IMG/VR virus record: IMGVR_UViG_3300006919_000369
Location: 1 to 26,300 of that record
Strand: one strand, 5' to 3'
DNA length: 26,300 bases
Source of the DNA: a virus
Shown: positions 1 through 25,039 of the stretch, in pieces
Numbering within the stretch: position 1 is the first letter of the stretch
How the letters are laid out: every line of letters starts with the position of its first letter
Made by a program: the position numbers and the translations under genes
Notes under the pieces: model-generated
The model's database searches: none
Told to the model about the DNA's origin: nothing
The model's input: only the letters and a program-made list of their open reading frames with translations

Positions 1-3000
1 AACCTCAACAAGACGAAGCTGGTGGCCCTATAGAATCTCTTATAGGAGGCACTAAACGTTTTGCATCTTCAATAAGAACAGCACTAGATTTAGGCGATAC
101 TGCTGAAGACGCTACTTTAGAAGGTATAAAACGTCAAGAAGGAATTAAAGAACGTCCTGGCTTTAGTATGGAAGATATTAAACGTGCTTATAAAGATGAA
201 GGTTTAATGTCAGCAATAGGAGAAACCGCTTCACAAATACCTGGTACTGTAGCTGAACAAGCTCCTTTATTAGGTACTATTTATGCAGGGGGTAAAGCAG
301 GTTTTGCCCTTACTCCACCAATAGGTCCTTATGCAAAACCAATAGGTGGTCTTATAGGTTCTATGGCAGCTCCATTCTTAAGTATGATGGGCAACAATAT
401 GGAGCGTAGAGCTCAAGAACAAATAGCTAGAGGAGAACCTGTTGATATTAATAGAGCAGAGGCGGCTGCATTTGCTGCTGGTCAGGTTATTATGGAAAGA
501 ATAGGATTAGCATATTCTGGAATAACTAAAGTATTAGGTGTTGATAAACTTGGAGCTGAGTTAACCAAGAAAATGGGTAAAGAAGCTGTTAAAGAGCTTA
601 CTAAGAAAAATATGGGTTTAGCCATAGCTGGAGGAACATCAAAATATTTATTATCTGAATTACCAACTGAAGTTGGCCAACAAGCACTAGAAAGAGTTTA
701 TGCAGGACTAGATGCTTTTGATGAAGACGCTATGAATGAGTATGGCGAAACTATGGCTCAAGTAGCTTTAACAGGTCCAATAGGTTCTGTTACTGGGTAT
801 GTTGGTGAAAGACAAAACAGAAGAACAATAAAAGATTTAGAAGAGTTAGAAAAAACTAACTTAGCTACTATTCGAGCAGATGCTGAGAAAAGATTAAGAG
901 AAAAAACATTAGAAGTAGAAAAGCAACAATCTATAGAAGCAACTGGTAATTTATTAAATGAAGTACTTAATGTGTCTAATTTTGGGTTAGATTATTTTCA
1001 AGATACTAGTGATATATTAAAACAAATTTCTCCTTTTGAATCTAGAATTGATGAACTAAGAATTAAAGCAGAAACAGCAATTGAAAACGGAGATATAAAA
1101 GCTGCTAATGAATATATAAATCAAATTCAAAATTTTAATGACAAAATAACATTAAAAATTGACAAATTTAAAGATTTAAAAATAGAAGATATACAAAAAC
1201 AAACTAAAAAAGCTATTAAAGGTAGAGAGTTTATTGCTAACGAATTACAACAAATAGCTGATATAAAAGCTGAATCTAATTTTGAAAACAAAACACCTGG
1301 GTTATTAACTGATAATGTATTAAGACATTTTTTAGGTTTACAAAGAAGATCAAATACTTATAAAAATGCATTGGGTTTAGACTTAAATAATCCTAATAAT
1401 TTTAAAAAGTTTAAAAAACTGTTAGATGATAATCAACCAAACATTAACCAAGAGGCTTACGATCAGTATATAATAAAACTAACGGACTATCTGGAGAAGC
1501 AAAATGCTGGAAAACAAATACCCATCGCATATACTAGAGAACGCGATGAAATACTTAGTAGATCCAAACCAAAAACCACTACCAGAAGTAGCAGAGATGA
1601 CGGAACTGGAATTACTGGGGATACAACTCCTACTGGACGCCCTGCTGGACGAAAAAGCGTTGAATATACTCCATTAAATGCTAGCCAAGATACAATAACT
1701 CAAACTATTGAAACTCTAAATAACGAGATACAACAAACAAGCGATCTAGAAGAAATATCAGAAACTGGAAACCAGTTACAAAATCTTGATAAGCTAAAGA
1801 CTAAACTAGATAAAGCTAAAACAAAACTAGCTCCTAAAAATTTAACTAAAGATGAAAAAAGCACACTAAAAACATTTTTAGGTGAGTTTGTTGAAAACAC
1901 ATTTAGAAACCAACAATCCCTCCAAGACCCTAATGTAAGAGCTCAATATAAAGGCGCATTAGATACTATAAGAGACTTAGATAAACAGTCTCCTTTTAAA
2001 GATACAAAGTATGATGTGCAAGAAGAAGTAGCACCTGAAACTGAAGTTGAAACAGTTCCTGAAACAGCTCCTGAAACAGCTCCTGAAACTAAACCAAAGT
2101 TAATACATGATGTAATTGAATCATCTTTATGGAAAGCTAGCTTAGATGCTGAAGATTTAAAAAATCCAAACTTTAAAACAGTTGATAACTATTTAAAATA
2201 TATAGATGAAATATTAGCAGAACTTCTACCTCTAAAGAAAAGAGTAGAAAATCAAAAAAGACCTAGAATAGCTGTAATGGATCAAATATATAAACTACAA
2301 GATCAGATAAGTTTTTATCATGGCTCTATAGCAAGAGCAGCGGGTGATCCTTATCAATTACCTCAAACAAAACTAGGGGATTTGATAGGCGAATTAGTAC
2401 GAAATCCTAGTAAAGAAGGGAGACAAAAACTACAAGAGCATATAAATGAGCTTAAAAAACGTTCAGGCCCTGCTACAGATGAGTATCAAGAGTATTCAAA
2501 CAAAGAAGCTCAACCAGACATAATACAAGAAGTAGTTAAGCAAAAAAATTTACGTAGTGCGCTACAAACATTAAAAAATAAATTTAGTAATAGACTAAAC
2601 AAAGCACAAGCTGCTTTAGTAGATAGACTACTACAGGTTCCTGGAATGAATACCACATCTCTACGATCAGATACGTTTGAAGAAAAACCAACAAACAAAC
2701 CTAAAGGTGCTTATAGCTATAGAGTTAACAGTGTTCGTTTGCATCCTGATACAGCAAACACAGTTACAGTGCTTCACGAAGCTATCCACGCAGCTACTGT
2801 TAGCGAAATAAACAAACATTTAACTGAGTCAGATAAAGTTATTAATAACTCTAAGCTAGGACAACAGTTATTAAATATGTTTAACGCAGCTAAAGATGTT
2901 GACACTGATGGTCAATTTAAACAACCTTTTAAAGACGTTAGAGAATTTGTAGCTTATGGACTAACTGATGAAGATTTTCAAAAGTTTTTGTCTGGCGTAA

Positions 3001-5930
3001 GATCATATAACGCTCAGGAGTCACGTATATCTAATCTATGGAATGACTTCGTTAACTTTGTTAAAGAGGTATTAGGATTAGGAGATATATCAAATACTGT
3101 TCTAAACGATTTATTAATCGTGTCTGATGACTTATTACAAGGTCCAAATGGCGCGATTGTAGGTAAAAGAGAAGGTACATATTTCCAAGAAGGTGAAACA
3201 GAAAATTCTTTAGATGCGCCAAAAAGAAATAGCACTGGTTTTTTCCAAGGTATGCTAAATAAAATAACTAATCCTGATGTACCTAAAGATAGTATAGGAG
3301 ATTTATACTTAAAAGCTAGAGTCAAAGTTGCTAACTTTTATGCTAAACCTCAAGAAGCTTTAATGGATGAGTTTAACGGAGCAGTTACACTAGATCAACA
3401 AATACGTGCAGACTTGTATTTAGATCAAGCTTTACATAGTAATGCAATAGCAGCTCAAGCTGCAGAAGTAGGAAAAGTTATATTTAATGATAACGGTTTT
3501 GGGGAAGTTGTAGAAGACGATAATAACTTTAATACTATTTTTAATGCTATAAATAATCTATCTAAAACTTTTGGTCCTGAAGAAGCTAGAATAATTGTTC
3601 AAAGATACTTAGCTGCTAAAGCATTCTTAGGCAGGCAAGGGCTTAAAAATGAATTAGAAAGAAAAATGAATGATTTGACAGAAGAAGCTGAATACTTAAT
3701 CAAAAACCAAAAAAATGAACCTGATGCTAAACGTAGAGCTAGAGCTGCTAAACGTAAAGCAGCAGAACTAGATAAACAAATTACTAATTTAAAAATTACT
3801 GATCAACAGTTAATGGACTCTGAAGAAGCTGTTAATGAATATTCTGATTTGCCAGAAATAAAAGCTATTGAAAATGTTGTATACAATATAAATTTAAACC
3901 ATATAGATTTAATGCAACAATCTGGACTTATAACAGATAGTAAAGCTCTTGAGTATAAAAACACAGCTGAATGGTATGTTCCTTTGTTTAGAGATGTAGA
4001 TCCTACTGAGTCTGCAACAAAAGAATATTTTAGAGGTTTTGCAGATTTAGGTAATGAATTTGAGTTTAGAGGTTCAGAAAAACAAGTATTAGATATATTA
4101 GATAATATGATTAAAAAGCATTTTTGGATTGTAAATGCTTCTATGAGAAACAATGCTAACCGTAAAAATGCAAACGCATTAGCTGCTAGAGATGAAGATG
4201 GAGACTTAATAACATACTCTTCTCAATCTGCAGCACCACAAAACATACAAGAAAATTTAGCTAAGGTGTTTATAGACGGTAAAGAAGTATGGGTTGAATA
4301 TGATGATCCATATTTTGCATTTGCTATTGAAGGTTCTGAAGTTCCTATAGATGACTTTGGTAGATACATGTCAGCGTTTTCTAAAACTTTACGTTTAGGT
4401 GTTACATCTAACCCTATATTCCAAGCATATCAAGTTTTTAATGACGCTATAGGTTCTGCTTTGTTTTCTGGTGTAAAACGTCCTTTCCGTCTTGCATTAA
4501 AAGTTTTAAACAGCTATAGAGTAGCAACTATGGATGACTCTGATCCTGTGTTAAGAAGAATGAAAAATTTAGGTATTGTAGGTGGGTTCTATGGTTATGA
4601 TACAAAAGACCCTTTAAAAAATTTAAGAGTTAAATATAAATTAGAAGATGATAGTAAAATTAAAAAGTTAGTTAGAGCTACTGATGCATGGGCAGCTAAC
4701 TCTGATGTTGCTCAACGTAGAGCCTTGTTTGAAGAAACACTATTAGAAACAGGTGGTGTTAAAAACGAAGATGGTTCTATAACAGGTGGTAATGAAATAC
4801 TTGCTATGAACAGAGCAACAAATATTATTAACTGGCAAAGAAGAGGGCAAAGCGGTAAAGTAAGATGGTTTGTACATTTAATACCTTTTGCTAATGCATA
4901 CATACAAGGTGCTGATGTTCTTATACAAGCTGCTAGAGGTAAAAATATTGCTGGTGTAGAAAAAGCTGCTGCTAAAAAACTATTCTTTAAAACAGCTGTA
5001 AATGCCATGATGCTAAACTTTTTATACAGAATGGCAATTGGTGCTTTTGATGATGACGAAGAGTATGCATCTATGGACGATAGACAAAAACTTAGATCAT
5101 ACATGATACCAGGCACTGGGTTTAAGTTACCAATTAGGGCTGAATTAGCACTAATAACTAAAATGATTCCTGAATTAGGATATAACATTTATGCTAATGA
5201 AGGCACTGTAAACGAATATGATGCTACTAAAATAATGAATATAATAGGCAGATCATTTGCTGATGCTGCTATGGGACCAAATATGGTACCACAAGCTCTA
5301 CGACCAGCAATGGAAGCGGTTTTTAATTATGACTTTTTTACTGATAGACCTATTGTTGGATTAGGTTATCAAAATCAAGAAGTATCAAGGCAGTTTACTC
5401 CTTATACTTCTGAAATGGGTAAGATAGCTGGTAAGACAGGGCTTATTTCTCCATTAAAATTTGATCATTTAATAAGAGGTTATTTTGGTACTATGGGTAG
5501 TATGGCCTTATATATGTTTGATAGTATGGCCACTACCTTATTTGATGTTAAACGTCCTCCATTACCCTTAGATAGAATTCCAATAATATCTCCTTTATTT
5601 TACTCTCCTGTAGGTAGAGATAGACTAAATGACTTTTATGAACTAAAACAAATGTCAGATGTAATGACTAATACGTTTAATGATATGGTTGAAAAAGGAG
5701 ACTACAAAGCACTTGAAAAATTAACAGACAATGATAAAAAACTTATAGGCGTAAGAGATCAAGTCTTATTTTATAACAGGATGCTTAAAGACATTAGAGA
5801 TAGAAGAAAAGAAGTTATTAATGGAAACATACCAGAAAAGAAAAAAATGCAAGCATTAGAAAGACTGCAAAAAGAAGAATATAATGCTTTAGCTGGTATA
5901 TCTAGAGTAAGGCAAAGAGCAGGGCTATAG
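1..5930 (+). CDS. Giant virion-type polyvalent protein with metallopeptidase motif and LPD38-like region (5' partial)
   Basis: The frame is open to the left edge: codons can be read from base 3 with no stop, so the ATG at 168 is probably internal and at least 1975 residues are visible. Residue numbers here count from that ATG. The N-terminal part has Gly/Ala-rich hydrophobic stretches (about 25-75 and 95-160). A long charged, probably coiled-coil section follows, then a Pro-Glu-Thr linker (nt 2026-2095). A zincin motif LHEAIHA lies at nt 2772-2792 (HEAIH 870-874), with a downstream REFVAYG that could give the third ligand. The C-terminal third (nt 4380-5300) contains NPIFQAYQVFNDAIG and HLIPFANAYIQGAD, resembling LPD38 of large polyvalent phage proteins. 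Such proteins are typically packaged or ejected internal virion proteins; that role is inferred. It is the only rightward gene and converges with the leftward cluster, overlapping its last gene by 6 nt. Confidence 0.8.
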   Translation, partial: PQQDEAGGPIESLIGGTKRFASSIRTALDLGDTAEDATLEGIKRQEGIKERPGFSMEDIKRAYKDEGLMSAIGETASQIPGTVAEQAPLLGTIYAGGKAGFALTPPIGPYAKPIGGLIGSMAAPFLSMMGNNMERRAQEQIARGEPVDINRAEAAAFAAGQVIMERIGLAYSGITKVLGVDKLGAELTKKMGKEAVKELTKKNMGLAIAGGTSKYLLSELPTEVGQQALERVYAGLDAFDEDAMNEYGETMAQVALTGPIGSVTGYVGERQNRRTIKDLEELEKTNLATIRADAEKRLREKTLEVEKQQSIEATGNLLNEVLNVSNFGLDYFQDTSDILKQISPFESRIDELRIKAETAIENGDIKAANEYINQIQNFNDKITLKIDKFKDLKIEDIQKQTKKAIKGREFIANELQQIADIKAESNFENKTPGLLTDNVLRHFLGLQRRSNTYKNALGLDLNNPNNFKKFKKLLDDNQPNINQEAYDQYIIKLTDYLEKQNAGKQIPIAYTRERDEILSRSKPKTTTRSSRDDGTGITGDTTPTGRPAGRKSVEYTPLNASQDTITQTIETLNNEIQQTSDLEEISETGNQLQNLDKLKTKLDKAKTKLAPKNLTKDEKSTLKTFLGEFVENTFRNQQSLQDPNVRAQYKGALDTIRDLDKQSPFKDTKYDVQEEVAPETEVETVPETAPETAPETKPKLIHDVIESSLWKASLDAEDLKNPNFKTVDNYLKYIDEILAELLPLKKRVENQKRPRIAVMDQIYKLQDQISFYHGSIARAAGDPYQLPQTKLGDLIGELVRNPSKEGRQKLQEHINELKKRSGPATDEYQEYSNKEAQPDIIQEVVKQKNLRSALQTLKNKFSNRLNKAQAALVDRLLQVPGMNTTSLRSDTFEEKPTNKPKGAYSYRVNSVRLHPDTANTVTVLHEAIHAATVSEINKHLTESDKVINNSKLGQQLLNMFNAAKDVDTDGQFKQPFKDVREFVAYGLTDEDFQKFLSGVRSYNAQESRISNLWNDFVNFVKEVLGLGDISNTVLNDLLIVSDDLLQGPNGAIVGKREGTYFQEGETENSLDAPKRNSTGFFQGMLNKITNPDVPKDSIGDLYLKARVKVANFYAKPQEALMDEFNGAVTLDQQIRADLYLDQALHSNAIAAQAAEVGKVIFNDNGFGEVVEDDNNFNTIFNAINNLSKTFGPEEARIIVQRYLAAKAFLGRQGLKNELERKMNDLTEEAEYLIKNQKNEPDAKRRARAAKRKAAELDKQITNLKITDQQLMDSEEAVNEYSDLPEIKAIENVVYNINLNHIDLMQQSGLITDSKALEYKNTAEWYVPLFRDVDPTESATKEYFRGFADLGNEFEFRGSEKQVLDILDNMIKKHFWIVNASMRNNANRKNANALAARDEDGDLITYSSQSAAPQNIQENLAKVFIDGKEVWVEYDDPYFAFAIEGSEVPIDDFGRYMSAFSKTLRLGVTSNPIFQAYQVFNDAIGSALFSGVKRPFRLALKVLNSYRVATMDDSDPVLRRMKNLGIVGGFYGYDTKDPLKNLRVKYKLEDDSKIKKLVRATDAWAANSDVAQRRALFEETLLETGGVKNEDGSITGGNEILAMNRATNIINWQRRGQSGKVRWFVHLIPFANAYIQGADVLIQAARGKNIAGVEKAAAKKLFFKTAVNAMMLNFLYRMAIGAFDDDEEYASMDDRQKLRSYMIPGTGFKLPIRAELALITKMIPELGYNIYANEGTVNEYDATKIMNIIGRSFADAAMGPNMVPQALRPAMEAVFNYDFFTDRPIVGLGYQNQEVSRQFTPYTSEMGKIAGKTGLISPLKFDHLIRGYFGTMGSMALYMFDSMATTLFDVKRPPLPLDRIPIISPLFYSPVGRDRLNDFYELKQMSDVMTNTFNDMVEKGDYKALEKLTDNDKKLIGVRDQVLFYNRMLKDIRDRRKEVINGNIPEKKKMQALERLQKEEYNALAGISRVRQRAGL

Positions 5931-13783: not shown

Positions 13784-14454
13784 TATTTACCCCAATGTGG
13801 ACACCCTTGAACTGGACAAAACTTTTTGCACGCAAAGTTTGGCACTGGATTAAATACTTCTGTGTCATAAGCTACATCCATACGCTGTATTAATCTTGAC
13901 CACTCTGCATACATGTCGTCAATGTTAGTTATATTATACTCTTGTTTTATAATATCTTTACATACTAAATAAATTAAACCAGCTTTAATTGTTTGTATTT
14001 CAGGAAAGTGTTTAAACACACCAACACTAAGTAGGCCTAATTGTTTTGGATCAGCATACTGACTATTTTTACCTGTTTTATAATCAATCATGGTTGCTAT
14101 TTTTTTATCTTTGTCAATAATTAATAAGTCAACAGCCCCACGCCACCATACATTGTCATCAAAAAAACCACAAGGTTCTAAATCTTTGGTTAAACCTAGT
14201 TTTAATTCACATTGTTTCTCCCCAGGAATTTCATTTAGTTTATCTAATATTGTTTTAAATTCACTAAATTTATCAGGTAGAGGGACTCCGTCTCTTATGT
14301 AAAGTTCGGCTGCTTTGTGAACTTCGTTACCGTATAAGAAATGTTTTTGGTTTGGATCTTGTTTTATATCTTTAGCTACATACAAATGAAAATATTGTTT
14401 AGGACATTTTTCAAATGTAGTTGCACTAGAGTAAGACCATGTGTATTTAGCCAT
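13783..14454 (-). CDS. RecB/Cas4-like PD-(D/E)XK exonuclease with Fe-S cysteines
   Basis: The 223-residue protein shows the RecB/Cas4 nuclease motifs: GNEVH (42-46), E83 in CELKLGL, GAVD (106-109), MIDYKTGK (122-129, catalytic D124 and K126) and a QL pair at 138-139. Cys17 (FEKCPKQYFHLY) and Cys209, Cys213, Cys218 (ACKKFCPVQGCPHW) are placed like the four iron-sulfur ligands of Cas4 and AddB-type nucleases. Such enzymes resect DNA ends in recombination and replication. Stop/start overlaps of the TAATG type link it to PolA before it and HNH after it. There are no cas genes or CRISPR repeats nearby, so a phage recombination role is far likelier than CRISPR adaptation. Confidence 0.87.
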   Translation of the reverse strand: MAKYTWSYSSATTFEKCPKQYFHLYVAKDIKQDPNQKHFLYGNEVHKAAELYIRDGVPLPDKFSEFKTILDKLNEIPGEKQCELKLGLTKDLEPCGFFDDNVWWRGAVDLLIIDKDKKIATMIDYKTGKNSQYADPKQLGLLSVGVFKHFPEIQTIKAGLIYLVCKDIIKQEYNITNIDDMYAEWSRLIQRMDVAYDTEVFNPVPNFACKKFCPVQGCPHWGK

Positions 14455-16286
14455 TATTTTGCATCCATATAGTTATCCCCAACTCCAATTTCACAGTCGA
14501 GGGGTAAGTCTTCGCACCATTCAGAAGCAGAAGTCATACACTGCTTTACGTATGATACACAATCGTTAACTTCGTTATCTTTACATAGCATAACAAGTTC
14601 ATCATGCACAGTCATTACTACAGGGTATTTTTTAGACACAGCTATAAGTTGGTCTGCAATAATATCTCTAGCTAATGATTGTATACATCTTTGGAATGTT
14701 TTAGCAGGGTGTATGTATTCAGGAACAATAGTTCTACCCATTAACTTGTCATATACCCATGACTCCCTACCATTTTCGTTTACAATTTTTCTTAAGTTAG
14801 GTAAACCTAAAATCATTTTGTTTGGCTTAAGCATTCCTTTCTTAGGTATTCCTGATATTATACCACGATTGCCCATTGTGTAATGTTTGTTTGTATGTAT
14901 AGCCTCTAGCATTGTGCCAGCATCGTTCCATGCTTGAACTAACTTTGGGTTTGAATCACGATAGTGGTATACAATATTTTTAATCTCATCTAAATCTTTT
15001 TCTACCCCACCTTGTTTTAATATTGCATGCATTTTGTTTGCACCAACACCATAAATACCAGAAAGGTTAACTACTTTAAATATAAATCGTAAATCTTTAT
15101 CTACTAAATCATAAGTAATGTGCATTATATCTGCTGCTGATTTTTTATATAAATCCACACCATTTTTAATCATCTCTATTTTGTCATAGTCTCCAGCAAA
15201 CCAATAAGCTAATCGTAATTCAATGTTACTTAAATCACTAGCTACAAGTTTATAACCTTTTGGTGCACATATAGCTCTTCGTAACTCAGAAGTTCTCGGT
15301 AGATTTTGTAAATTAATCCCATCTACACCCGACCACCTATGGCTTATTACAGCTCCAGAATATTTTAATGGAACAGGTAGCTTTCCCCTATTAGCAATAG
15401 CTATAAAGTTTTCTGTGCGTGTTTCTTCTATAGTAGACTTGTTACCTATTCTTGCCGCTGCTAATGTTTGAACGTATGGATCTTCATGGTTTAATAGTTC
15501 TTTAAAGCCTTCATCTGTTTTAGCAAAAGCATATGTTTCTTTACCTGTAGTAGGGCTAATCTTCATAGGTGGATTTATGTTCATGCTTATTAACAACTCA
15601 GCAAATTGAGGGTTACTCATTAATATACTTTTGTCCACTGCAACCTTACTTAAAAGTTCTTCTTTTGTTGCTTTTGTTTTTGCTAAATGTTTTATTAACA
15701 GTGCTTTATTTATATATAGTTTAGGCTCTGTAAACATTCTTATTGTAAGATCAATTAGTTTGAGTTCTTTTTGTGTAAAGTTATTTACTAGTGAAAAGAA
15801 AAGATCATATGTTAGTTGAACGTCGTTTATACAATAGTTACCGTATGCTTGAAGTTCATTTGGAGTAAAGTCTAGCCTGTGTTTTCCCAGAGCATCTAAT
15901 ACTTCGGTTCCTTTTTGTCCTAAGTTGTATATACTTGATAAGTTTTTAAGTGATACTGATTCTGTTAACCCATGAATTATTATTCCCATACTCATAGTGT
16001 CAAACAAACCTTTAGGGTTTATATCAAATATCCAGTTTAATATTGCAGCGTCAAACCTCATGTTATGCCCTAACACAAATTTGTCTTGCATGTTAAATGA
16101 ATCTAGAAAAGATTTTATTTCAGAATGTGTTCCAGAAAACCATTGAGGTTCTTTATTGAATTCTTTTACAGCTACACCTATAGTTTCAAATTGAGGGTCT
16201 CTTATATATTCTTCTGTTGTGTATTTTCTGAGTCCGTATGTTTTATCGTAGTATGTTTCAAAGTCAATCGTTATTAGATTCTTCAT
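14454..16286 (-). CDS. Family A DNA polymerase with 3'-5' exonuclease domain
   Basis: The 610-residue replicative polymerase starts immediately with exonuclease motif I (TIDFETYYD, D8 and E10). Exo II is GHNMRFD (73-79) and exo III YCINDVQ (Y151, D155). The polymerase domain has motif A SDLSNIELR (D351, E356), motif B R400-x3-K404-x7-Y412-G, and motif C VHDELV (H561, D562, E563). All catalytic residues are present, so proofreading and synthesis should both work. No 5'-3' exonuclease domain is present, as usual in phage PolA. AAAGGAATAG precedes the ATG. It overlaps the zinc-ribbon gene upstream by 23 nt and the RecB/Cas4-like gene downstream by TAATG. Confidence 0.96.
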   Translation of the reverse strand: MKNLITIDFETYYDKTYGLRKYTTEEYIRDPQFETIGVAVKEFNKEPQWFSGTHSEIKSFLDSFNMQDKFVLGHNMRFDAAILNWIFDINPKGLFDTMSMGIIIHGLTESVSLKNLSSIYNLGQKGTEVLDALGKHRLDFTPNELQAYGNYCINDVQLTYDLFFSLVNNFTQKELKLIDLTIRMFTEPKLYINKALLIKHLAKTKATKEELLSKVAVDKSILMSNPQFAELLISMNINPPMKISPTTGKETYAFAKTDEGFKELLNHEDPYVQTLAAARIGNKSTIEETRTENFIAIANRGKLPVPLKYSGAVISHRWSGVDGINLQNLPRTSELRRAICAPKGYKLVASDLSNIELRLAYWFAGDYDKIEMIKNGVDLYKKSAADIMHITYDLVDKDLRFIFKVVNLSGIYGVGANKMHAILKQGGVEKDLDEIKNIVYHYRDSNPKLVQAWNDAGTMLEAIHTNKHYTMGNRGIISGIPKKGMLKPNKMILGLPNLRKIVNENGRESWVYDKLMGRTIVPEYIHPAKTFQRCIQSLARDIIADQLIAVSKKYPVVMTVHDELVMLCKDNEVNDCVSYVKQCMTSASEWCEDLPLDCEIGVGDNYMDAK

Positions 16287-16621: not shown

Positions 16622-16651
16622 GCACAAATTAAGATTTTTCTTATTTTGTGC
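16622..16651 (-). promoter_or_regulatory. Leader dyad copy 4 (before the PolA unit)
   Basis: Left arm GCACAAATTAAGA (16622-16634), 4-nt spacer TTTT, right arm TCTTATTTTGTGC (16639-16651); one mismatch in 13 pairs. It lies 15 nt upstream of the ATG of the zinc-finger gene and overlaps the last codons of the DUF3310 gene. No convincing promoter is seen just upstream of it. Confidence 0.75.
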
Positions 16652-16877
16652 TCTTTTTATTTCTTATAATTAGTCTTAGTTTTTGAAGATAATAGTCACA
16701 TTTATCTAAATCTTCTATTCCGTTCTTCCTTGAGAATCTCCAAATGTATTTAATTACATTAGCTACGCATACAGCTACAATTCCTACTAAGCCCATCGTT
16801 GCTGAATCAATAGCATCAATACATTCTACTTTACCTTGGGTATAATGAGAAGGTTTATTTACATTATCATTTTTCAT
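16641..16877 (-). CDS. DUF3310 family protein
   Basis: The 78-residue product matches DUF3310: NKPSHYTQGKVECIDAID, a middle hydrophobic stretch, then NVIKYIWRFSRKNGIEDLDKCDYYLQKL. The HY-x2-G-x-E/K-ID and N-V-I-K-Y-x-W-R motifs are diagnostic. The family is very common in phages, often beside nucleotide-metabolism or replication genes, and its biochemical role is not established. The start overlaps the VRR-NUC gene by 11 nt, which suggests coupling. The 3' end runs into the leader dyad of the next unit. Confidence 0.88.
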   Translation of the reverse strand: MKNDNVNKPSHYTQGKVECIDAIDSATMGLVGIVAVCVANVIKYIWRFSRKNGIEDLDKCDYYLQKLRLIIRNKKSTK

Positions 16878-17178
16878 TTATGGTTTGCTTTCCTGTTAAC
16901 ATCATTTCTAAAATGTCAACATTGTGTTCGTTGATTATATATGCTTTACCTTTAGCTTCTTCAATAAGGTTTAGATTTTTTATTTGTAATTTGGTTGGTG
17001 TATTTTTATTGGCTTTGCATTCAATACCTATAAACTTGCCTTTGTAACAGGCAACTATATCAGGCACACCTGACTGCATGTAGCCACTAGCGACAGGGAA
17101 AAAATAGTATGCCCCAATCTTTTTCAAGACTAGGACACACTTATCTTTAACCCACTTTTCAGTGATTTTTTTAGACAT
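16867..17178 (-). CDS. VRR-NUC domain nuclease
   Basis: The 103-residue protein is a minimal PD-(D/E)XK nuclease: GVPDIVACYKGKFIGIECKA places D40, E53 and K55 exactly as in the VRR-NUC family, and Q65 follows in TKLQIKN. Stand-alone phage VRR-NUC proteins probably resolve branched DNA or Holliday-type junctions in replication or packaging, as in siphophage replication modules with SNF2 and PolA. The start codon sits at the base of a small hairpin (17177-17195) formed with the end of the gene upstream, which could make its translation depend on that gene. Confidence 0.9.
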   Translation of the reverse strand: MSKKITEKWVKDKCVLVLKKIGAYYFFPVASGYMQSGVPDIVACYKGKFIGIECKANKNTPTKLQIKNLNLIEEAKGKAYIINEHNVDILEMMLTGKQTINEK

Positions 17179-17195
17179 GTTATCTAAGATAACAT
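17177..17195 (-). promoter_or_regulatory. Hairpin over the VRR-NUC start codon
   Basis: The transcript carries AUGUUAUC, a 3-nt loop and GAUAACAU, a perfect 8-bp stem. The stem includes the stop codon of the 97-aa gene and the first bases of the VRR-NUC AUG. Ribosomes finishing the upstream gene would open it, a usual arrangement for translational coupling. Confidence 0.45.
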
Positions 17196-17477
17196 ATTTT
17201 TTTGGTCTTGTATATCTTTATCGACAACTAAATAGCTTATAAGTTTTGGTGAGTTAGAAAACTTTCGTATCGCATCTTTTTGTTTAAGAATAATAAGTTT
17301 CATATTTAAATAATCAATATCTTTATCGTTCTCTATGATGAGATAAAAATCTTTCTCACGCATACCAACATCTTTAACCATTATGCTATCGTCTACAAGT
17401 TTGAGAAGAGCAATCTTTCTCCTGTGTTGTTCAGGTATGTCTGGATTGTCTTCGTCTTTTGAAAGATAAACTTTCAT
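17184..17477 (-). CDS. Hypothetical protein, 97 aa
   Basis: I do not recognise this protein. The product opens MKVYLSKDEDNPDIPEQHRR, is strongly charged, and alternates short strands (FYLIIENDKD, MKLIILKQKD, LISYLVVDKD) with helices, suggesting a small alpha/beta fold. It has no cysteines or membrane segments. It overlaps the DUF3150-like gene by ATGA, which ties it to the MoxR/VWA unit, and lies 5 nt before VRR-NUC. Confidence 0.65.
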   Translation of the reverse strand: MKVYLSKDEDNPDIPEQHRRKIALLKLVDDSIMVKDVGMREKDFYLIIENDKDIDYLNMKLIILKQKDAIRKFSNSPKLISYLVVDKDIQDQKNMLS

Positions 17478-18319
17478 ATAAGCTCCATAAGTTCTGACAC
17501 TTTGCTTGCTACATCTTTACGCAAAGCATCACTTTGTCTTAGATCCTCTGCATCAACACCGACTATAATTTTCTCTAGTCTTTGTCTAGCTGTTTCTAAC
17601 TTAGGATCTTTTGTGATATTCAAACTTGATAGCATGCCTGTTAGTTCTAAAGCATTAGTAACAAGAGTGTCTCTGAATATCTTCTTGTCTTCACCAGATA
17701 ATCTTTCGACCATGTGGTTAACAGTATCATGCAGTCTAGTCCAAGCTGACTTCATAGCAAACTCTACTCTGTCGTTGTATGCTTTCTCATACTGTTCTTT
17801 AAGATCCTGTCGCATTTGATTGTTAATGTTATCAAAGTGATTGACTTCAGGAACAGGTAGGAAAGTATAGTTAATCTTAAACTTTCTTTGTAGTTCGTCT
17901 GCTATTGGATACTCAGATCTATCAAACAACTGACCTAGCTTGTAAGCCATAGCATCAACAATGTTTGGATAATTACCTATAAACTTGTTGACACGTTCTT
18001 TGAATAGTTCTTCATGCTCGTCCATTTGTTTCTTGTAGTCAAAAAACTGTGTCATAGGTAATAGTCGTATACCACCACTCGACGACCACGGCAAAGTTTG
18101 TCGCATGTGCCAGTCTCGTATTTCACTAGCATGCTTTTGTATCTTAGCCAAAGCATCTGAACCTGCAAGCAAATGCTTGTTGTAGTTACCTGCTTTAGTT
18201 GTCGTGTTTTTGTTTACATCTATTTCTTTAGACACACTTTTGTCTAGCTTTCTTGCTGACCAAACAGATATGTTTAGTTCAACAAGAACATTACTTGATG
18301 CAATATTAATATCACTCAT
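17474..18319 (-). CDS. DUF3150-like protein of the MoxR/VWA cluster
   Basis: The 281-residue, mostly helical protein opens with a strand-like VLVELNISVWSARKLDK, which resembles the start of DUF3150 proteins. It then shows GGIRLLPMTQFFDYKKQM and a long helical section (EELFKERVNKFIGNYPN) followed by a conserved-looking AWTRLHDTVNHMVERL. DUF3150 genes are often found beside MoxR-type ATPases and CobT/VWA proteins in phages and plasmids, which is the context here. The family role is unknown; a partner or substrate adaptor of the ATPase is a reasonable inference. A strong ribosome binding site (AGGAGGATAAG) directly precedes the ATG and overlaps the end of the 228-aa gene. Assignment is by resemblance, not by alignment. 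Confidence 0.65.
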   Translation of the reverse strand: MSDINIASSNVLVELNISVWSARKLDKSVSKEIDVNKNTTTKAGNYNKHLLAGSDALAKIQKHASEIRDWHMRQTLPWSSSGGIRLLPMTQFFDYKKQMDEHEELFKERVNKFIGNYPNIVDAMAYKLGQLFDRSEYPIADELQRKFKINYTFLPVPEVNHFDNINNQMRQDLKEQYEKAYNDRVEFAMKSAWTRLHDTVNHMVERLSGEDKKIFRDTLVTNALELTGMLSSLNITKDPKLETARQRLEKIIVGVDAEDLRQSDALRKDVASKVSELMELI

Positions 18320-18320
18320 C

Positions 18321-19007
18321 TTATCCTCCTAGTCTGTAATATTCGTTACTGTCAATGGGTGCACTATTTATATAATTAATTTCTAGGTTTGTTATGTTAC
18401 CCTCGATTATGTCGTTTGCTACTTTTATTGCCATGTTATCTTCAGGAATTGGTATCCTAAATTTATTAATTTGTTTCTTAAGTTTTTGTAGTAGAGCATA
18501 GCTACCTTCTGAAAAACCTGCTTTGTAATCTTTACTACTACGTCTATGTTCATAACTAAGCCCTGCTCCGTATAAACTAAACTTGTATTTACCTACAGTT
18601 TCATTAGGTTCACGAGTTTTAATTCCTTCAAGTTCTCTAAGGTTTTCTAATATCTCGTCTCTTATATGCTGAGATGATACATTATGATCCTCATTTAATA
18701 ATAAACACATAGTTAAAAACTCTTCTATGGGTTTCCATACTTCACTGCCTGCTTTGTAGTTAACTACTTTAGCATCATAATCATTATTTAATATTATGTG
18801 TGGGTGTGTGGGCCCAACATGTTGTCTCCATAAGTCTGAAGCAATATGTTTAGTAATAGCATTACTATAAGTGTTTTGTGCACCTACAGCTTCAGTTATA
18901 TATTTCTTAATGTTTTTCTTTTGACCAACACCAAGATTGTTTAAATCTAGGTGCCCAACCAATCGTGAAAAATATTGATTGTGTGCGTCAGGTATGTTGA
19001 TACTCAT
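18321..19007 (-). CDS. Hypothetical protein of the MoxR/VWA cluster, 228 aa
   Basis: I do not recognise this protein. It opens MSINIPDAHNQYFSRLVGHL and is mostly helical. There is a middle segment with Glu/Asn-rich helices (SSQHIRDEILENLRELEG) and an aromatic stretch, GKYKFSLYGAGLSYEHRR. There is no signal peptide, membrane segment or metal motif. It is linked by TAATG to the VWA protein upstream and sits 1 nt before the DUF3150-like gene, so it is part of the same translational chain and probably works with those proteins. Confidence 0.75.
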   Translation of the reverse strand: MSINIPDAHNQYFSRLVGHLDLNNLGVGQKKNIKKYITEAVGAQNTYSNAITKHIASDLWRQHVGPTHPHIILNNDYDAKVVNYKAGSEVWKPIEEFLTMCLLLNEDHNVSSQHIRDEILENLRELEGIKTREPNETVGKYKFSLYGAGLSYEHRRSSKDYKAGFSEGSYALLQKLKKQINKFRIPIPEDNMAIKVANDIIEGNITNLEINYINSAPIDSNEYYRLGG

Positions 19008-20155
19008 TAGTCTTCTCCTTCATAGTTAATTGTTTTTCCATGAGGTGATACTTCTTTAGATGTAACTACCCATAAGGTAGGATACTTCCAAGTGCCACCC
19101 CAATCTTCTTCTACATAGCCGTCGGTGAATATAAGCACGGCTTCAGGTTTGATTTTGTGTTTGTCTAAATACTTATTCACACATCTAACCTCTGTGCCAC
19201 CCCCACCCATTGGTTTTGTAGATTTAAGCATGTTGCCATACTCATGCTGTTTATACTGCTCTGCACCTGCTACATCAGAATCCCAATACAACAAGTGAAC
19301 AGTTTTTGGTATTACATCTTCACATATACTGACTACTTCAGAAAGAAACGCTTGTATGTCTTTCTGTCTGATAGATCCTGATGTATCAATACCAATTACC
19401 AAGTCACCAACAGATTCACCTATCATTGATGGCATGTATATATCTTGTGATACAAACCTACGATGTGGGCGTCTCCATGATGACTTATCTTTTGTGCTAC
19501 ATATGTTGTTCATGAACTGTCTAAGTTCATGACGCCAGTTAACTTTTGGTTTAAGCAAATCGTTGATAGCTCTAGACTGATTACCACCCATCTTACCTCG
19601 TAGTATCTCGCCTTGTCGCAGAGCCGTATCAATTTGTTTTTTAACTTTGTTAACTTCGTCATCGTCCAACTTTTCAGCACCGTCCCAATCATGAACATCA
19701 AGTTGATACCCTTGGTTCATGTTAGGATTTTCTTGAATCAAAGTGTCAAACACTTGCCTTGTAGTCCAACCATCAAAACGTTTGTCATACAATGCACCAC
19801 TAGGCATTACAGTTATAGCACTGTTAGGATCAGCATTTACAATAGTTTGGTTAACTATGTAGTCAGCCGCCATGTTTGCTATCATAGGATTTTGTTTAAA
19901 TAATCCTTTCCATAAGTGCATGTGTTGAAACGCTTTGTGTATAGCTTCGTGCAACACGATGAAATTTAGTTCTTTACTCTGTAGTCTGTCTATAAACTTT
20001 GGGTTGTATACAACATCTCTGCCGTTAGTTGCAGCTGTTGGTATATCGTCCTGAAAACTAACATCGCCTATAGACAAAACACCAGAGAACAAACAAAACT
20101 CTTTGCTACGCATAATAGCAATATGAGATTTTGTGACTTTATCTTGTGGTGTCAT
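19007..20155 (-). CDS. Metallopeptidase-like plus VWA (DUF2201-type) protein
   Basis: The 382-residue protein has two parts. The N-terminal domain carries a zincin motif, VLHEAIHKAF (HEAIH 69-73), and Asp98 in NMAADYIVN as likely third ligand, matching the peptidase-like domain found in front of DUF2201. The C-terminal VWA-like domain has an intact MIDAS site: DTSGS (257-261), GGTE (319-322) and TDG (344-346), so it should bind Mg2+ and a partner. Proteins of this build pair with MoxR-type AAA+ ATPases, as in RavA-ViaA, CbbQ-CbbO and CobS-CobT, where the pair remodels or activates a target. Here the ATPase gene lies just upstream, with a 53-aa gene between. No secretion signal, so it acts in the cytoplasm. 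The target is unknown. Confidence 0.88.
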   Translation of the reverse strand: MTPQDKVTKSHIAIMRSKEFCLFSGVLSIGDVSFQDDIPTAATNGRDVVYNPKFIDRLQSKELNFIVLHEAIHKAFQHMHLWKGLFKQNPMIANMAADYIVNQTIVNADPNSAITVMPSGALYDKRFDGWTTRQVFDTLIQENPNMNQGYQLDVHDWDGAEKLDDDEVNKVKKQIDTALRQGEILRGKMGGNQSRAINDLLKPKVNWRHELRQFMNNICSTKDKSSWRRPHRRFVSQDIYMPSMIGESVGDLVIGIDTSGSIRQKDIQAFLSEVVSICEDVIPKTVHLLYWDSDVAGAEQYKQHEYGNMLKSTKPMGGGGTEVRCVNKYLDKHKIKPEAVLIFTDGYVEEDWGGTWKYPTLWVVTSKEVSPHGKTINYEGED

Positions 20156-20313
20156 TCTGTCTCCTCTATCTCAAAGTCTGAACCTGCTACATTTTTGTGT
20201 TGTTGATAAAGTTCTAAAGCGTATTCACAAGCTTTTAGTTTGCTACTGAACTTGCCTACAATGTTACCTACACCTTTAGTGCTGTATTCCACAACTAAAT
20301 ATTCTTTATTCAT
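20152..20313 (-). CDS. Small protein between MoxR ATPase and VWA genes, 53 aa
   Basis: This gene was read directly from the sequence. The product begins MNKEYLVVEYSTKGVGNIVG and ends GSDFEIEETE. AAGGAGATAACA gives a strong ribosome binding site that overlaps the stop of the MoxR gene, and the stop overlaps the VWA start by ATGA. This exact fit is good evidence for a real gene. It looks like a small beta-beta-alpha domain with an acidic end; no family recognised. Confidence 0.75.
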   Translation of the reverse strand: MNKEYLVVEYSTKGVGNIVGKFSSKLKACEYALELYQQHKNVAGSDFEIEETE

Positions 20314-20323
20314 TGTTATCTCC

Positions 20324-21370
20324 TTAGAAAAATTGTTTATGATCCATTACCCAGTCCGTAAACTTTTTGTTAGTTGCAGCGAGTGCTTGTTTAGAACCAT
20401 TCATTATGTTGAATGCAAACAATGCTCTCATTTCCATAGGTAGTCTTTGCATATACACAATCCATGGTTCAAGGTTTTCTTTGGTTATGTTCATTAGTTC
20501 ACGCATAACAAGAATTACTCTTGCTGATGGATCGTTAGGAACGATAGCTTTATCAGGTTCTTTGTATATAGCTTCTCGTGTTGGTAGTTCATCTGCAAGT
20601 GAGAAGTATGCAGACATATCTCTCGCAGCTGATTCACCAATGGTGCCTGATAACGCTGTCATTGTTGTATTCTCACCAAGCTTGTGTCTAGCTTTAACAA
20701 CGAATGATGCTTTGTGTAAAGATCTTGGTGTGACAAACGCTTGTTGTTCTTTCTGAGGATTAAATATATACAAGTTCTCTTTCTGAGATGGATCAGTATA
20801 ACTAGCCAGACAGTGTGGAAACTGTTTAACCCATGCTATAACTTCAGGAGACAAGTCATTATCAATTGCCCATGCAATCCATTCATCATCTGTTGGATTA
20901 CGAAGATTAACAGTAGTGATTCTGTTTTTAGCATGGGCTTTCAAACTGTCGCCAACACCGTCTGTTATCAAATTACCTGTGGAATACACAATTGAATCAG
21001 GGTGAAAAGCAACAGAACCAAGCCGTCTTTCCAACATAACAGGTAACAACATATTCTTTACAGGTTCACTAGCTTTTGTAATCTCGTCGAGCATTACGAT
21101 AACAGGTTTACCATGATGTAATTGAAACCTTTCGTTTGGATAGAATGATGTAGTCTTTGTATTATGATCCATGGCAGGCATAGCTAAGTCACCCAAGTCT
21201 AAGTCTGCACAGTCAATATATACAGGTATATGTGTGGAAAACTTGTCTGCCAATGTATTTAGTATTGACGATTTACCAATCCCAGGTTGTCCCTGAACAT
21301 GCACTGTTGTCGTCGTGCCTACGCTTTCAATCAGATTAGTTACTTCTGATAGGTTTAGTGATAATTGCAT
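20324..21370 (-). CDS. MoxR-type AAA+ ATPase
   Basis: The 348-residue ATPase has Walker A GQPGIGKS (27-34), Walker B VMLDE (92-96), sensor 1 STGN (130-133) and a likely arginine finger near AKNRIT (147-152), the order seen in MoxR/CobS-type AAA+ proteins. It would form a ring that uses ATP to remodel a target together with the VWA protein two genes downstream. AAAGGAACT precedes the ATG. A leader dyad copy lies 23 nt upstream of the start, in the 53-nt gap after the 318-aa gene. Marine phages are known to carry CobS-like members of this group, usually without a proven role. Nothing here points to cobalamin synthesis itself. Confidence 0.9.
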   Translation of the reverse strand: MQLSLNLSEVTNLIESVGTTTTVHVQGQPGIGKSSILNTLADKFSTHIPVYIDCADLDLGDLAMPAMDHNTKTTSFYPNERFQLHHGKPVIVMLDEITKASEPVKNMLLPVMLERRLGSVAFHPDSIVYSTGNLITDGVGDSLKAHAKNRITTVNLRNPTDDEWIAWAIDNDLSPEVIAWVKQFPHCLASYTDPSQKENLYIFNPQKEQQAFVTPRSLHKASFVVKARHKLGENTTMTALSGTIGESAARDMSAYFSLADELPTREAIYKEPDKAIVPNDPSARVILVMRELMNITKENLEPWIVYMQRLPMEMRALFAFNIMNGSKQALAATNKKFTDWVMDHKQFF

Positions 21371-21393
21371 TTTTAGTTCCTTTCAAATTAAAT

Positions 21394-21423
21394 GCACAAA
21401 TTAAGATATTTCTTAATTTGTAG
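21394..21423 (-). promoter_or_regulatory. Leader dyad copy 3 (before the MoxR gene)
   Basis: Left arm GCACAAATTAAGA (21394-21406), spacer TATT, right arm TCTTAATTTGT then AG (21411-21423); the inner 11 bp pair perfectly. It fills the short gap between the 318-aa gene and the MoxR start, with no clear promoter nearby, so the MoxR genes may be read through from the promoter at 22.5 kb. Confidence 0.75.
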
Positions 21424-22380
21424 TTAAATAGCCAGTTGTCTTTGTGGTTCATCAACAAGTTCTAATATATCTTTATAGTGTTGTTGTTTAATACTACGCT
21501 CTAACGAATTTAAGTATTGATCAGGAGTTGATCTTTTAGCTCTAGGTCCCCAAAAGAATTCATAGCTTGAATCTTTAAGTTTATCGCTGTCTGGTTCAGG
21601 CATCCTATTATAATTCTCACGCATGAGAGCGCATATTAAATGCCTGTATTCTTCATTATCAGACTTACACGCTGAAAGCCATAGATCGTTAGCATCTTCT
21701 TTTGACCAAGAGTCTGGGTATATATTCCACATAGCTGAAATATATTCTTTTATTTTTTGAAGTTTACCTTGACGCAACGCTTTCATTTTTTTACGATTTA
21801 CTTTATATTTTTTAGGAACTGTAAACTGTTCTTCATTTAAAGGTGTGCCATCATACGAAAATTTGTAAAACTTTTTATCAACTAGATCTCGACTATGACC
21901 GTTTACAAGTTCAGCACGAGTTGAAAATGATTCGTCCTGTAAATCTTTTTCGTATACAAACCCACTAGGTATAAACTCTTTCCATGGTATTGCCCAGAAA
22001 CGTATACCTGTTAAACTTGTTTGTATAGTGCTACCACCAGTGGAACGAGGTGGAGTTACTTCATAGTGGTTTGGATAAAAATTAACAGTAGCATTATGCG
22101 ATACAAATTTACTCCAATCACTAGTTCTATAAGCACTGTTAGGGAAATAATTAGTTATACAATAGAAGAATTCGTTAACTTCGTTATCATATAGTTTAGT
22201 TATATACCCATTAGAAAAATGATGTGTTACTTTGTATCTGCTAGACTGTTGTGTAGAGTAACTACCTTCGTCTGAGTAACCTGATTCTTCATACTCAGGA
22301 CTAAAACTCCATACATGTTCTAGCTGTTTGTAGGTGGGTGTTTCTATTGAATCCCACACTAAACCGATTTCAATAGACAT
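21424..22380 (-). CDS. Hypothetical protein heading the MoxR/VWA unit, 318 aa
   Basis: I do not recognise this protein. The N-terminal half is rich in aromatics, Ser and Thr and looks beta-rich (YKVTHHFSNGYITKLYDNEV, then NATVNFYPNHYEVTPPR). The second half is helical and basic (KVNRKKMKALRQGKLQKIKE) with a Trp-rich stretch, MWNIYPDSWSKEDANDLWL. There is no signal peptide or membrane segment. It has its own perfect sigma70-like promoter and leader dyad and a good ribosome binding site (AAAGGAGA), so it is probably well expressed and is the first gene of the unit that continues into the MoxR, VWA and DUF3150-like genes. A target or substrate-recognition protein of that system is one possibility, with no direct evidence. 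Confidence 0.75.
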   Translation of the reverse strand: MSIEIGLVWDSIETPTYKQLEHVWSFSPEYEESGYSDEGSYSTQQSSRYKVTHHFSNGYITKLYDNEVNEFFYCITNYFPNSAYRTSDWSKFVSHNATVNFYPNHYEVTPPRSTGGSTIQTSLTGIRFWAIPWKEFIPSGFVYEKDLQDESFSTRAELVNGHSRDLVDKKFYKFSYDGTPLNEEQFTVPKKYKVNRKKMKALRQGKLQKIKEYISAMWNIYPDSWSKEDANDLWLSACKSDNEEYRHLICALMRENYNRMPEPDSDKLKDSSYEFFWGPRAKRSTPDQYLNSLERSIKQQHYKDILELVDEPQRQLAI

Positions 22381-22408
22381 AATTGTCTCCTTTCATAGAT
22401 GAAAAAAA

Positions 22409-22446
22409 CTAGGCACAAATTAAGAATAATCTTAAATCGTGCCTAG
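22409..22446 (-). promoter_or_regulatory. Leader dyad copy 2 (before the 318-aa gene), with extended stem
   Basis: Left arm GCACAAATTAAGA (22413-22425 core), spacer ATAA, right arm TCTTAAATCGTGC; a further CTAG/CTAG pair extends it to 17-bp arms (22409-22425 and 22430-22446). It lies about 40 nt downstream of the -10 box at 22488 and 28 nt upstream of the ATG, so it falls in the 5' leader of the transcript. Confidence 0.8.
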
Positions 22447-22487
22447 AAACTTAATGAAACATGAGGTAATACTACCCCCATTCTGAT

Positions 22488-25010: not shown

Positions 25011-25039
25011 ATTATACACTAAGTCATTGACTTTGTCAA
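25011..25039 (-). promoter_or_regulatory. Consensus sigma70 promoter for the accessory-gene unit
   Basis: On the minus strand TTGACA (25034-25039), a 17-bp spacer and TATAAT (25011-25016) match the consensus exactly. The -35 box covers the stop codon of the second HTH gene. The predicted start near 25004 gives a leader of about 90 nt that contains the dyad. Confidence 0.88.

Follow-up and report, generated by a model that had tools for sequence, protein, structure and literature searches.

NorQ-NorD, CobS-CobT, CbbQ-CbbO and RavA-ViaA each combine a MoxR motor with a co-factor bearing a von Willebrand factor A (VWA) domain and its metal-ion-dependent adhesion site (MIDAS). MIDAS-ligand engagement is also known from midasin. 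To our knowledge, the partners in the four pairs have no HExxH domain, and no DUF3150 subunit accompanies them. In the NorQD system, the VWA protein engages the client and the AAA+ ring remodels it (PMC9976466, PMC13036017). MoxR-VWA pairs have also been described in phages (PMC7824862, Iyer 2021; PMC8651126, Liu 2021); they occur in hundreds of phage genomes, and the roles proposed for them, virion assembly and cobalamin, contradict each other. Here, we analyse a cluster built around such a pair in a 26,300-base virus fragment from IMG/VR (record IMGVR_UViG_3300006919_000369; hereafter the window), where the same combination of MoxR motor and MIDAS/VWA co-factor is linked to a third conserved protein, a divergent relative of DUF3150. 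The pair was already known in phages; the three-part set with DUF3150 apparently was not.

The phage systems described so far differ from the window in what surrounds the pair. The jumbo phage pair (PMC7824862) consists of the same MoxR ATPase and the same VWA protein with an N-terminal metallopeptidase domain and lies among virion genes, whereas in the window's lineage the pair is always linked to DUF3150 and lies in the predicted early arm. Schitoviridae (N4-like phages, e.g. G7C) encode a homologous adjacent pair, an ATPase and a DUF2201 protein related to N4 gp24-gp25, near replication or nucleotide-metabolism genes. Unlike in the window's lineage, DUF3150 is missing from the loci of this kind that were sampled.

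A linked core of three genes

The cluster occupies positions 17474-22380 of the window, on the minus strand. An earlier note, made from the sequence of the window, had described it as six open reading frames (ORFs) that form one translational chain. All six are present in near-contiguous order, with junctions that range from an overlap to a gap of at most 53 bp, and the proposed combination of a MoxR ATPase and a metallopeptidase-VWA protein with uncharacterised partners in one chain is supported. From upstream to downstream, they encode A318 (318 aa, 21424-22380), directly upstream of the MoxR-type AAA+ ATPase (348 aa, 20324-21370; phrog_1297), a 53-aa ORF product (20152-20313), the DUF2201 metallopeptidase-VWA protein (382 aa, 19007-20155; phrog_1314), B228 (228 aa, 18321-19007) and the DUF3150 protein (281 aa, 17474-18319).

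The window's proteins, used as queries against IMG/VR, gave about 190 loci, whose ORFs were then searched with profiles. Where a DUF3150 locus extended 6.5 kb or more upstream, both MoxR and VWA genes were found (66 of 66 distinct loci); where a MoxR locus extended 4.5 kb or more downstream, so were VWA and DUF3150 genes (22 of 22 distinct loci). A scan with the DUF3150 profile alone gave at least 600 candidate stretches, and 593 of the 600 listed were confirmed. As such, the MoxR-VWA pair is common in phages, with matches in 674 and 480 records. Across a wide phage group, the gene order is A318-MoxR-VWA-(B228)-DUF3150-c97-nuclease-PolA, c97 being the ORF that follows DUF3150. Judged by this linkage, the core of the cluster is a set of three genes, MoxR, the DUF2201 metallopeptidase-VWA gene and DUF3150, with accessories around it.

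This neighbourhood survey, which the earlier note had proposed as a check, thus recovered a linked chain but not a fixed six-gene unit. Among the three or four unknown partners that the note had counted, only DUF3150 proved universal; the A318 family lies upstream of MoxR in 62 of the 66 DUF3150 loci and B228 is present in 24, while the 53-aa ORF is confined to the closest relatives. Orphans routinely occurring without the ATPase and the VWA protein had been named as the pattern that would speak against a joint system, and for DUF3150 this was seen in 0 of 66 loci of the phage group.

The MoxR ATPase and the metallopeptidase-VWA protein

The MoxR protein matches AAA_5 above the Pfam cut-off. 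Its Walker A and B motifs, sensor 1, arginine finger and sensor 2 are all intact, and G30-x-G32-K33 (Walker A), D95-E96 (Walker B), N133, R150 and R216 are invariant in 27 sequences. The nearest solved relatives by profile matching are the AAA domains of midasin, NorQ and CbbQ. An adjacent VWA partner gene, a trait of the MoxR family, is present in all 66 and all 22 loci of the survey. By analogy with NorQ-NorD, CobS-CobT and midasin, the product would be expected to form a hexameric ATPase with a client.

The second protein fuses an N-terminal zincin-type metallopeptidase domain (HEAIH...H) to a C-terminal VWA/MIDAS domain. Both halves score above their Pfam cut-offs: DUF2201_N (PF13203) at E=4e-29 and 102 bits (cut-off 23.2), and DUF2201 VWA (PF09967) at E=8e-18 and 65 bits (cut-off 26.4). 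In 28 sequences, H69-E70-x-x-H73, H78, D98 and N102 are invariant, as are D257-x-S259-x-S261 and D345 of the MIDAS, with T321 conserved in at least 90%. The claim that the key residues of both proteins are intact therefore holds, and extends to their relatives with this one slightly variable position. The peptidase domain also has a weak SprT-like similarity (E=0.0036, 17.6 bits against a Pfam cut-off of 25.6), which fits, without showing, a predicted action on DNA-bound proteins.

In PHROGs, phrog_1314 is mislabelled 'HNH endonuclease', and the label has spread to many phage records (e.g. L007:5968-7092 and L219:5974-7329 among our loci), so that the MoxR-VWA system is obscured in many phage annotations.

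The DUF3150 protein

The 281-aa protein matches DUF3150 (PF11348) at E=0.0028 and 17.5 bits, under the gathering cut-off of 24.9. Nevertheless, a profile of the window's family matches annotated DUF3150 proteins, at E=5e-48 in phage MinM2 and at E=1e-35 on a Manganitrophus plasmid, and for this reason we name it a divergent relative of DUF3150, with full-length homology (the tblastn alignment spans 99% of the query). W20, D26, K48, R68, W78 and 15 other residues are invariant in 34 sequences. Mean column identity within the phage group is 52%, a level of conservation similar to that seen in the MoxR motor.

The AlphaFold2 model of the protein is a bundle of long helices with a predicted local distance difference test (pLDDT) score of 86. 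A fold search of this model against PDB gave no informative match; the rows labelled VIA, which align chiefly with residues 163-281, represent helix bundles of a generic kind. A sequence search of solved structures with DUF3150 and A318 yielded nothing convincing. No papers on DUF3150 were retrieved in a literature search whose scope left out most subscription journals. The DUF3150 protein of phage Tunturi_3 is, like phrog_1314, annotated 'HNH endonuclease'.

Accessory proteins

Relative to its nearest relative (locus L018), the window has 82% identity in MoxR, 83% in DUF3150, 70% in the VWA protein, 79% in PolA and 66% in the nuclease, as against 31% in A318 and 37% in B228. The same contrast between a slow core and fast A318 and B228 is seen across 900 pairs. 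By these identities, A318 and B228 are the fast-changing parts of the cluster. Both are lineage accessories, B228 being specific to a subclade. A318 was modelled by AlphaFold2 with a pLDDT of 78, and a fold search of this model against PDB gave no match. Its family was built by iterative profile search, growing from 35 to 87 members with a mean column identity of 16%; membership of the most remote sequences is less secure than one would conclude from their invariable placement before MoxR. In MinM2, the gene that precedes MoxR encodes a 279-aa protein without homology to A318.

The ORF after DUF3150, a 97-aa ORF in the window (17184-17477, minus strand) that overlaps the DUF3150 stop, varies in length. 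Most loci that carry B228 have a product of about 80-105 aa, whereas most loci without B228 have one of about 260-340 aa. The short and long forms share a motif of about 40 residues, located near the C-terminus of the long form (e.g. L050:2214-3239).

Distribution on plasmids and in other phages

With tblastn, DUF3150 was found on 44 plasmids. All eight proteobacterial plasmids sampled carry MoxR, DUF3150 and VWA genes adjacent or nearly so, as confirmed with the phage profiles. On these plasmids, from Burkholderiales and other bacteria, the order is MoxR-DUF3150-VWA, with no match to A318 or B228 at the triads. Synechococcus/Planktothrix phage MinM2 carries the same triad in the same order. 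Linkage thus persists despite two orders, MoxR-VWA-DUF3150 or MoxR-DUF3150-VWA. The trees of the three proteins are broadly congruent: MinM2 joins a Rhodovastum plasmid in all three, and locus L085, with a plasmid-like gene order, groups with or inside the window's group. The finer joins are unsure, as several branches are long.

DUF3150 also occurs in other company. In Tunturi_3 and two Candidatus Manganitrophus plasmids, all mobile elements, it stands beside an AAA+ ATPase of another class (Pfam AAA, PF00004) in the order AAA-DUF1257-DUF2997-DUF3150, with no VWA protein found nearby. This pairing suggests that DUF3150 may be a general AAA+ partner on mobile elements. Among our loci, the four-gene set lies at L004:2108-6762, L137:5866-8888 and L149:5867-8887, in a soil phage and Nitrospirota plasmids.

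Searched over their full records, G7C, D473, phage G and cto1L10 contain no DUF3150. IncC conjugative plasmid pAR060302, considered as a possible carrier, gave no match. A single scan of bacterial chromosomes with one conserved peptide pattern, which is weak evidence of absence, retrieved only a 3.4-kb contig of a metagenome-assembled genome, with DUF3150 and VWA genes.

Genome placement and promoters

The window is a fragment, and placement was read from longer relatives whose near-complete status was judged from sequence length. In one of 61.9 kb (G001), the replication genes, including the triad, run in one direction and the terminase, portal and tail genes in the opposite one. In all nine near-complete relatives with an identified terminase, this gene is encoded on the strand opposite to DUF3150. 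Near-consensus sigma-70 promoters of G001 lie in the first 16 kb, with none in the next 42 kb of the pieces scanned. Opposite-strand placement and promoter distribution together point to a location of the cluster in the early, replication arm and to a predicted early expression.

In the window, an exact-consensus sigma-70 promoter (TTGACA-17-TATAAT, 22516-22488, minus strand) lies upstream of A318, and the nearest relative has TTGACA-17-TATACT at the equivalent position. Two exact consensus sites were found in the window against 0.02 expected. The earlier note had placed the whole cluster under this promoter. The promoter exists, but a hairpin followed by U7 (approximately 22400-22450, minus strand), a candidate terminator or attenuator, intervenes before A318. 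The hairpin has a folding energy of -33.6 kcal/mol (z -5.1) and resembles an intrinsic terminator; no obvious hairpin plus U-tract was seen between promoter and first gene in the nearest relative. Because of this element, the promoter may not simply drive the cluster. It may instead yield a short RNA, or the hairpin may act as an attenuator. The second exact-consensus site (25011-25039, minus strand) heads a leftward gene block.

The gene chain extends beyond position 17474. After the 97-aa ORF come, all on the minus strand, an Hjc-like (PD-D/ExK) nuclease (16867-17178), DUF3310 (16641-16877) and PolA, a family A DNA polymerase (14454-16286). Almost every relative whose sequence extends far enough has PolA downstream in the same orientation. 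At the other end of the window lies a gene (168-5930, plus strand) for a large polyvalent protein of 1,920 aa with a C-terminal LPD38 domain; virions may carry this protein. The window gave no matches in Rfam and tRNA scans.

Possible roles of the cluster

We give about an even chance to the cluster being an early-expressed phage AAA+ remodeller that has DUF3150 as its third subunit and targets DNA-bound or host proteins; this is the simplest application of NorQD-type MoxR-VWA logic. The sequences show an intact and linked core of MoxR, metallopeptidase-VWA and DUF3150 genes, kept together across a large group of phages as well as in large plasmids, and lying in the early arm of this lineage. 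As in NorQ-NorD, CobS-CobT and midasin, MoxR would assemble into a hexamer, the VWA protein would use its MIDAS to grip an acidic residue of a client or adaptor, and ATP-driven motion would then remodel the client. More speculatively, the HExxH domain might clip the client or serve as a docking fold, DUF3150 might be a dedicated third subunit in the form of a stalk, adaptor or client holder, and A318 and B228 might fit the machine to lineage- or host-specific partners. The likeliest clients would be replication or recombination proteins met early, or DNA-bound host proteins to be removed or inactivated. A broader version, which we put forward only tentatively, would make DUF3150 the constant part of a mobile-element AAA+ remodeller whose motor half is either MoxR with the metallopeptidase-VWA protein or AAA-DUF1257-DUF2997, again with early use, a protease and DNA-bound or host proteins as targets.

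Several observations weigh against an early remodeller. The SprT-like similarity falls under the Pfam cut-off. The plasmid triads sit beside genes for PRTRC, partition or type IV secretion, and the neighbourhood with replication genes in the phages may be a matter of lineage inheritance. In ten sampled other phages, mostly Schitoviridae, DUF3150 does not adjoin the MoxR-VWA pair, so not every such pair requires it. The loci behind our counts came from pattern scans and are related to one another, and the counts are not independent. The hairpin-U7 behind the promoter makes the timing of expression less certain.

Other roles can be set against the same evidence. A chaperone that folds, assembles or processes structural proteins has been proposed for group 2.2 jumbo phages, whose pair has the same peptidase-VWA architecture (PMC7824862); such a role is reported for a related pair in Acidianus two-tailed virus, and in GAP32 the pair adjoins virion genes. 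Here, however, the triad lies opposite the terminase strand in all nine near-complete genomes, among replication genes with early-type promoters, and plasmids, which form no virions, carry it too. Virion assembly, one of the three targets suggested in the earlier note beside host and replication proteins, thus becomes less likely for this lineage from gene placement, and we regard it as quite improbable. The best-studied MoxR-VWA pairs, NorQD and CobST, insert metals, and tailed viruses have been proposed to pair CobST with host CobN (PMC8651126), which would make the cluster an enzyme-activation machine, for example serving cobalamin for ribonucleotide reduction. This explanation is unlikely: ten near-complete relatives, like the window record, MinM2 and G7C, showed no large subunit of a class I/II or class III ribonucleotide reductase, while positive controls were detected. 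Compared with CobS-CobT, the linked third gene here is DUF3150; CobN was not searched for genome-wide, and a host metalloenzyme may still be the client. Placement, plasmid triads and lack of ribonucleotide reductase all weigh against the virion-assembly and cobalamin proposals in this lineage.

The triad might instead remove or disable a protein of host defence or housekeeping, for which A318 and B228 would be the rapidly changing recognition parts. Their much faster evolution compared with the core genes, the early placement and the sharing of the triad between phages and plasmids, two kinds of element that face the same defences, would all fit such a counter-defence or takeover role. Rapid change fits relaxed constraint as well, though, and no cluster protein matched a PADLOC model at E 0.01, in a library that holds few counter-defences; we consider this role rather unlikely. 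That the genes have no joint function and stay together only through the synteny of the phage group is very improbable. The neighbouring nuclease, DUF3310 and PolA keep their positions in many relatives too, but the triad holds together on plasmids and in MinM2 with a changed order and different neighbours, and the trees of its proteins broadly agree.

An early remodeller with DUF3150 as third subunit is thus the reading we favour. A role shared by phages and plasmids must suit both types of element, and this requirement speaks against explaining the triad by virions alone. Set against the contradictory proposals made for phage MoxR-VWA pairs, the DUF3150 triad is a sharper and testable object, one whose predicted place is early in infection.

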